Assembly (NCBI GenBank): GCA_029250275.1
Contig: JAPFBP010000003.1
Span: 1 to 58,918, forward strand
Reading direction: 5' to 3'
DNA: 58,918 nucleotides
Source of the DNA: Candidatus Nitrosopumilus sp.
GTDB lineage: Archaea > Thermoproteota > Nitrososphaeria > Nitrososphaerales > Nitrosopumilaceae
The notes under the pieces were generated by a model. The model had not been told where the DNA came from. It did no database searches and saw only the letters and a program-made list of their open reading frames with translations. The position numbers and the translations under genes were made by a program. Of the stretch, positions 14,441 to 15,146 are shown in pieces (within the stretch, counting starts at the first letter, position 1; each line of letters opens with the position of its first letter).

Positions 14441-14480
14441 AACTAATTTTTCAAAAACTGCTTTTCATAATTATTCCTTC

Positions 14481-14698
14481 AATGGTTTTTAGTAGGAGTA
14501 ATCTTATTACAAATCGCCCAAGAGCAGGCATGCAGACGGATTAGGATGAGTCGATCGTAATGATACCAGTGATTTCTAATTCACCCAGGCGTGCTACATT
14601 GTGGGCAACCCCGGTTTCAGAACGCGAGGAGGCGTATGGCTATGACCAATGATTTGGTGCGAGTCAGAACCGGGGAACATCTTTTTTCAAAAACCATT
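14481..14698 (+). ncRNA. Structured RNA candidate, double hairpin with ACA boxes (H/ACA-like)
   Basis: No convincing coding frame covers this stretch, and its GC content exceeds the flanks. Hairpin 1 pairs GCATGC (14528-14533) with GCGTGC (14589-14594), then GGATTAG (14538-14544) with CTAATTC (14576-14582). ACA follows at 14596-14598. Hairpin 2 pairs CCCCGGTT (14609-14616) with AACCGGGG (14668-14675), with an inner ACCAA/TTGGT stem. ACA follows at 14677-14679. In each hairpin 13-15 nt separate the upper stem from the ACA, as in pseudouridine-guide RNAs. Outer arms AATGGTTTTT and AAAAACCATT could pair, and a T-run (14682-14687) may end transcription. Signatures of 5S, SRP and RNase P RNA were looked for and not seen. 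Confidence 0.55.
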
Positions 14699-14714
14699 AA
14701 ACACAGATAAAAAT

Positions 14715-15146
14715 ATGAAAAATAAAATGGTGAATTATTGGTTAGCAAAACAAGAACCTAGTGGACCAAGGGGATATAATTTTGAACAGCTCAAAAAAGA
14801 AAAAACAACCGTATGGGATGGGGTCCATAATAATTTAGCATTAAAGCATATGCGAGAAATGAAATTAGGCGATCTTGTATTTTTTTATCATACAGGTGAT
14901 GAACGACAAGCAGTAGGTATTATGCAAATAACTTCAAAACCATATTCAAATCCTAAAGAAGATGTAGAACGATTTATTGTTGTTGATGTAAAATACAAAA
15001 AAACATTGAAACGTCCAGTAACTCTTGATGAAATAAAAAAAGAGAAAAAATTCAAAGATTGGGAATTAATAAGAATTTCAAGGTTATCTGTAATGCCTGT
15101 GCCAAAGCCAATCTGGGATAGTATTGTAAAGATGTCTCAAAACTAA
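14715..15146 (+). CDS. EVE-domain (PUA-like) protein
   Basis: The 143-aa product begins MKNKMVNYWLAKQEPSGPRG and shows the EVE layout: YWLAKQEPSG, then TVWDGVHNNLALKHMREMK, LGDLVFFYHTG and VDVKYKKTLKRPVTLDE. EVE domains belong to the PUA-like superfamily and bind modified nucleobases in RNA or DNA. The substrate is unknown. ATG 14715 is chosen because an upstream in-frame ATG (14649) falls inside the structured RNA and adds residues unlike the family. It follows the RNA element directly. Confidence 0.88.
   Translation: MKNKMVNYWLAKQEPSGPRGYNFEQLKKEKTTVWDGVHNNLALKHMREMKLGDLVFFYHTGDERQAVGIMQITSKPYSNPKEDVERFIVVDVKYKKTLKRPVTLDEIKKEKKFKDWELIRISRLSVMPVPKPIWDSIVKMSQN

Follow-up and report, generated by a model that had tools for sequence, protein, structure and literature searches.

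What occupies the interval between pheT and the downstream EVE-domain gene in the genome of this Candidatus Nitrosopumilus, a marine ammonia-oxidizing archaeon? In the window, the whole 58,918-nucleotide stretch of DNA that we analyzed, we find there an unannotated double-hairpin RNA of the H/ACA type, encoded on the forward strand, with a core as modeled of 14516-14679 that is defined by conservation in the genus and order and by covariation. The first-pass annotation saw no gene here, and this holds: an ORF caller does place the EVE start at 14649, inside the RNA, but this protein-coding reading was replaced by the start at 14727, which is conserved in relatives. The 14649-14726 extension of the EVE reading frame runs through the RNA, and the stretch is non-coding. 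Its predicted fold (14470-14710) has an energy of -73.7 kcal/mol (z = -3.5), and none of 200 dinucleotide shuffles was equally stable. Judging from the sequence, we regard this RNA as a new archaeal H/ACA guide, and it is very likely that the locus encodes an independently transcribed, archaeal-type box H/ACA guide RNA with two guide units.

Known RNA families do not account for the locus. A scan of the stretch against Rfam, at gathering as well as lax thresholds, yielded chance matches only, and none to a different known RNA. Two structured archaeal RNAs that annotation might miss are RNase P RNA (RNaseP_arch, RF00373) and SRP RNA (Archaea_SRP, RF01857), but the genome carries its own copies on other contigs (C79 and C66, respectively) and the family models do not match the locus, so that the RNA is neither of the two. 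Nor did we accept that it arose by copying of 23S or 16S rRNA pieces, as short look-alikes such as GUAUGGCU reach alignment scores at the level of shuffled sequences. In the open-access literature that we searched, we found no description of H/ACA RNAs in Nitrosopumilus or other thaumarchaea. According to the genome paper on N. limnia (PMC3043068), there is one conserved noncoding RNA with 93% identity to N. maritimus, which is not further specified there; this could be the RNA described here, RNase P RNA or SRP RNA. The genome does contain a gene for Cbf5 (contig C93, 376.6 bits).

The elements that the first-pass annotation had listed, namely two hairpins each with an ACA at a distance of 13-15 nt, an 8-bp lower stem, outer arms able to pair and a T-run at the end, are all present, and its inference of a double-hairpin guide RNA is borne out by the anatomy, by covariation, by pockets conserved across the phylum and by two matches to 23S rRNA. 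Each hairpin consists of a lower stem, an internal-loop pocket and an upper stem, an arrangement that covariation supports for both, and each carries a conserved K-turn. In hairpin I, the lower stem (14527-14533/14589-14595) shows two-sided changes at five of seven pairs in the genus alignment, and the pocket is formed by the 5' guide arm GACGG (14535-14539) and the 3' guide arm ACCCAG (14583-14588), of which ACGG and ACCCA(G/A) recur in homologs. Above it stands a GA stem of exactly 10 layers, recognized by its sequence and by covarying pairs, whose 5' side (14540-14549) ends in the K-turn GA and whose 3' side shares 14568-14580 with the K-turn strand. This stem runs from A14540:U14580 up to the second G.A pair of the K-turn (GA at 14548-14549, AGUGA at 14568-14572, with the UGA kept in homologs) and includes one U.U. 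The ACA box (14596-14598) follows immediately 3' of the lower stem, with 0 nt between them, and lies 15 nt from the pair that closes the pocket.

Hairpin II has a lower stem of 8 bp, CCCCGGUU (14609-14616) with AACCGGGG (14668-14675), on which covariation bears as well, and its pocket arms are UCAGA (14617-14621), a 5' guide arm that is purine-rich in homologs, and GUCAGA (14663-14668), in which GUCAG is kept and the last A (14668) already belongs to the lower stem as its first base. The upper stem (14623-14627/14655-14659, with covarying pairs) leads into a K-turn made of GA (14629-14630) and AAUGA (14648-14652), so that the two strands extend over 14623-14630 and 14648-14659; the AUGA is invariant in the genus alignment. 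Here the GA stem has 10 layers approximately, as that number is reached only if A.C/G.U and A.G pairs are admitted along with a bulged U: the first pair of the upper stem is A.C in this sequence and swapped for G.U in relatives, and there is also an A.G layer. The ACA box (14677-14679), likewise invariant in the genus alignment, is separated from the lower stem by 1 nt, GUCAG begins 14 nt ahead of it, and a T-run at 14682-14687 is a probable terminator. Productive archaeal guides have a K-turn, a 10-layer GA stem and 14-15 nt to the ACA, and GA stems with additional G-A layers have been described (PMC4652768). The anatomy of both hairpins fits these published rules, and the values of hairpin I are exact.

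Hairpin I and its ACA are in addition enclosed by a short external helix (14516-14519/14603-14606), which is real. It reads GCCC/GGGC here and extends over 7-13 bp in most of the others, and in the diverse alignment it displays two-sided changes at all four pairs and is 91% paired. Its sequence differs among homologs (CCCGCCG/CGGCGGG, GGCUUUCGUC/GACGAAAGCC, GUCCCUAUC/GAUAGGGAC), and compared with a control in which the upstream bases had been scrambled, the maximal helix length was 8.2 versus 4.9 for the six loci from other families of the order and 7.9 versus 6.0 for the 15 loci from other classes. To our knowledge, described archaeal H/ACA RNAs have no such helix around a hairpin and its ACA. 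At four loci from other classes (L208-L210 and L226), an external helix, GUGGGCGC/GCGCCCAC, appears to enclose hairpin II outside its ACA too.

How widely is this RNA conserved? By BLAST, it was detected in 52 of the 60 genus genomes, the present one included, and close homologs come from records labeled Nitrosopumilus, Nitrosarchaeum, Nitrosopelagicus and Nitrosotenuis. With a first model (R1), it was found in 204 of the 300 genomes sampled from the order, spread over several families, and a second model (R2), built across the order, was positive in 106 of the 299 sampled from the phylum, with E-values down to 3e-11 outside the order; the matches in other classes are weaker. The covariation across related genomes is strong. 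In the genus alignment (51 sequences), which was made with MAFFT and not fitted to a model, although the structure was nevertheless read from it, 97.3% of cells are paired and 12 of 37 pairs show two-sided changes, against a shuffled mean of 3.6. In the diverse, order-wide alignment (37 sequences), which was fitted to the model and hence leans towards the structure, 91.7% are paired and two-sided changes occur at 30 of 37 pairs, against 18.3 after shuffling. Sliding the structures by one to three columns lowered the pairing to 26-51%, and in both sets the observed covariation was reached by no shuffle and by no slid structure.

Across the phylum, no part of the RNA varies less than the pocket arms, and the hairpin I pocket is the most conserved of all. 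A hairpin I signature with (N)ACGG/ACCCA(G/A) was matched in 68 of 71 loci of the family and in 15 of 18 from other classes, and its 3' arm reads ACCCAG in all 68 matched family loci and ACCCA(G/A) in every matched locus of other families and classes. GUCAG stands 14 nt before the ACA in 69 of the 71 family loci, and several loci of other classes have GUUAG. As for the neighborhood, PheT precedes the RNA in 88 of the 97 loci read, even where its identity is only about 40%, and in 10 of 20 further loci, mostly from outside the order, while EVE is found in 65 of the 97, every one within the family. Two variant arrangements were observed. In a set of loci mostly from family f8 (L123-L130 and L135), hairpin II alone was found downstream of pheT, and a pattern search for hairpin I in the f8 genomes searched yielded only stretches unlike the hairpin. 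In family f2 (L132, L133, L136 and L220), a spacer lies between the two hairpins, which recalls the long haloarchaeal spacer.

The outer arms (14481-14490/14689-14698) can indeed form a 10-bp stem in this sequence, and the first-pass annotation had suggested that this could serve in processing. We did not retain that proposal, as the complete stem occurs in 8 of 51 relatives, with no compensatory changes seen, and as the arms sit at the TATA positions of the RNA and of the EVE gene. The 5' arm contains a TATA-like element, TTTTTAGT (14486-14493), between -30 and -23 relative to the RNA start, and tRNA genes of the same genome have A/T-rich, TATA-like elements at a matching distance; part of the 3' arm belongs to a similar element, ATTAAACA (14695-14702), some 30 bases ahead of the EVE start codon at 14727. 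Their sequence and position make two promoters a likelier reading of the arms than a processing stem.

Which RNAs could these pockets recognize? Comparing the pocket bases with rRNA gave matches at two key sites of 23S rRNA. The arms of hairpin I face CUGGGU-UUAGA-CCGUC in the peptidyl-transferase center (PTC; E. coli 2579-2594), with ACCCAG complementary to CUGGGU (2579-2584) and GACGG to CCGUC (2590-2594); the E. coli numbers are our own conversion, by which we take the PTC uridines to be U2585 and U2586. This pairing comprises 6 bp, a 5-nt gap (UUAGA) and 5 bp, where the rule is two unpaired nucleotides. The arms of hairpin II, AGA and GUCAGA, face UCUGAC-UC-UCU in helix 69, pairing over 6 bp, a UC gap and 3 bp, which makes for a weak 5' guide. 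Each pocket pattern, YTGGGT-N2-6-YYGTY for hairpin I and TYTGRYTNTYT for hairpin II, occurs a single time in the organism's own 16S and 23S rRNA, at these very sites. In 1000 shuffled rRNA sets, the strict patterns were met 8 and 3 times and the wobble-allowed patterns 103 and 35 times for hairpins I and II, respectively, rates that are indications and not tests because the patterns were written after the sites had been seen. Both sites are without variation among the families read, introns in helix 69 apart. In L168 (family f7) and L171 (family f3), helix 69 of the 23S rRNA is interrupted by an intron-like insert (GUAACUCUGACUCUC^...) that falls in the stretch proposed as hairpin II target, so that guiding there would have to follow splicing. 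Taken together, the pocket matches and the guide-like hairpins suggest that the RNA probably directs pseudouridylation at the active center of the ribosome and at the bridge loop H69.

An alternative that we regard as unlikely is that the RNA is an H/ACA guide with other targets, such as tRNA, mRNA or other rRNA sites, and that the two 23S matches are partly due to chance. It draws on our scan of the organism's own rRNA for targets with the canonical 2-nt gap, in which the best scores of both hairpins were no better than those of shuffles. One such candidate for hairpin I, GGUGAA[UA]CGUC at 16S position 1317, scored at shuffle level and was dropped because it requires a broken upper stem. This alternative has to contend with the rarity of the strict patterns in shuffled rRNA, and with the fact that both matches fall in regions served by H/ACA hairpins in Haloferax. 

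In Haloferax, HP1 (Hvo1) is reported to serve psi2621 and HP2 (Hvo2) psi1956/1958 in helix 69, and the two are related to stems II and III of Pf7 (PMC2584109; PMC4652768). Like this pair from Haloferax volcanii, the RNA described here has two H/ACA motifs, the first matching the PTC region and the second helix 69. By our own conversion, we take Haloferax psi2621 to be E. coli 2586. The two haloarchaeal hairpins have a long spacer between them, whereas in our RNA they are adjacent and an external helix surrounds hairpin I. The register in helix 69 differs as well: GUCAGA best fits the uridine equivalent to E. coli 1921, and a C-to-U change at the guide base concerned in other classes still pairs with G1918 in this register, while the 1915/1917 register used in Haloferax would need a C.A mismatch. 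By this analogy, the agreement in regions and order lends strong circumstantial support to the guide reading.

Other comparisons are looser. Pyrococcus Pf7 and Pab40 and Archaeoglobus Af4 are likewise multi-hairpin archaeal H/ACA RNAs, but with three hairpins; stem III of the Pyrococcus and Archaeoglobus RNAs guides a helix 69 site (L2016/L1970), whereas for the PTC site an alternative fold of Pab40 was only suggested, and no modification of that site was found in P. abyssi. Among eukaryotic RNAs, U19 and snR191 have a hinge H box and are not known to have a K-turn for L7Ae. These two guide the pseudouridines of helix 69 that are equivalent to psi1956/1958 (PMC2584109).

H/ACA-type particles can have other roles, as with eukaryotic snR30/U17 in the processing of 18S rRNA. 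We therefore also considered that a particle of this type, in binding the PTC strand and helix 69, might mainly chaperone folding or processing rather than guide pseudouridylation. Such a role would account for the 5-nt gap in the 6 + 5 bp pairing of hairpin I, and it would be in line with the exceptional conservation of that pocket. We nevertheless think it improbable, given that the ACA spacing and the length of the GA stem are as in productive guides, that Hvo1 and Hvo2 are regarded as guides acting on both regions, and that a third unpaired target base is accepted for Hvo2. Finally, the position of the RNA between pheT and the EVE gene could suggest that it acts in cis on the EVE gene, as a structured leader, an attenuator or another regulatory element, or that it is a pheT tail, but this is highly implausible, as EVE was not found downstream outside the family, some homologs have no recognizable pheT in the flank examined, and the RNA has TATA-like elements at either end, ACA boxes, K-turns and phylum-wide pockets.

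For the reading as a pseudouridine guide for these two sites, we infer transcription, assembly into an RNP, pseudouridylation and the exact uridines as follows. L7Ae would bind the K-turn of each hairpin, Cbf5, with Nop10 and Gar1, would grip the lower stem and the ACA, and each pocket would base-pair with 23S rRNA and thereby present a uridine to Cbf5. Hairpin I would act on the PTC, with the pseudouridine most likely at the equivalent of E. coli U2586, or at that of U2585, and hairpin II on helix 69, best at the equivalent of 1921, with 1915/1917 as alternatives. The uridine equivalent to E. coli 1921 is a pseudouridine in eukaryotes; we know of no description of this modification in archaea. 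More speculatively, and with considerable reservation, we propose an H/ACA RNA as old as the phylum, in which the ACA of hairpin I lies in a loop sealed by the external helix and the PTC target has a 5-nt open gap, and in which hairpin II of ammonia-oxidizing archaea has moved its helix 69 register to 1921.

Thaumarchaea are among the most abundant archaea of the ocean, and the RNA occurs in most of their genomes as well as in other classes of the phylum; the alignments are ready for an Rfam family. That it shares its two ribosomal regions with the haloarchaeal pair suggests, by analogy, that this may be an ancient guide.
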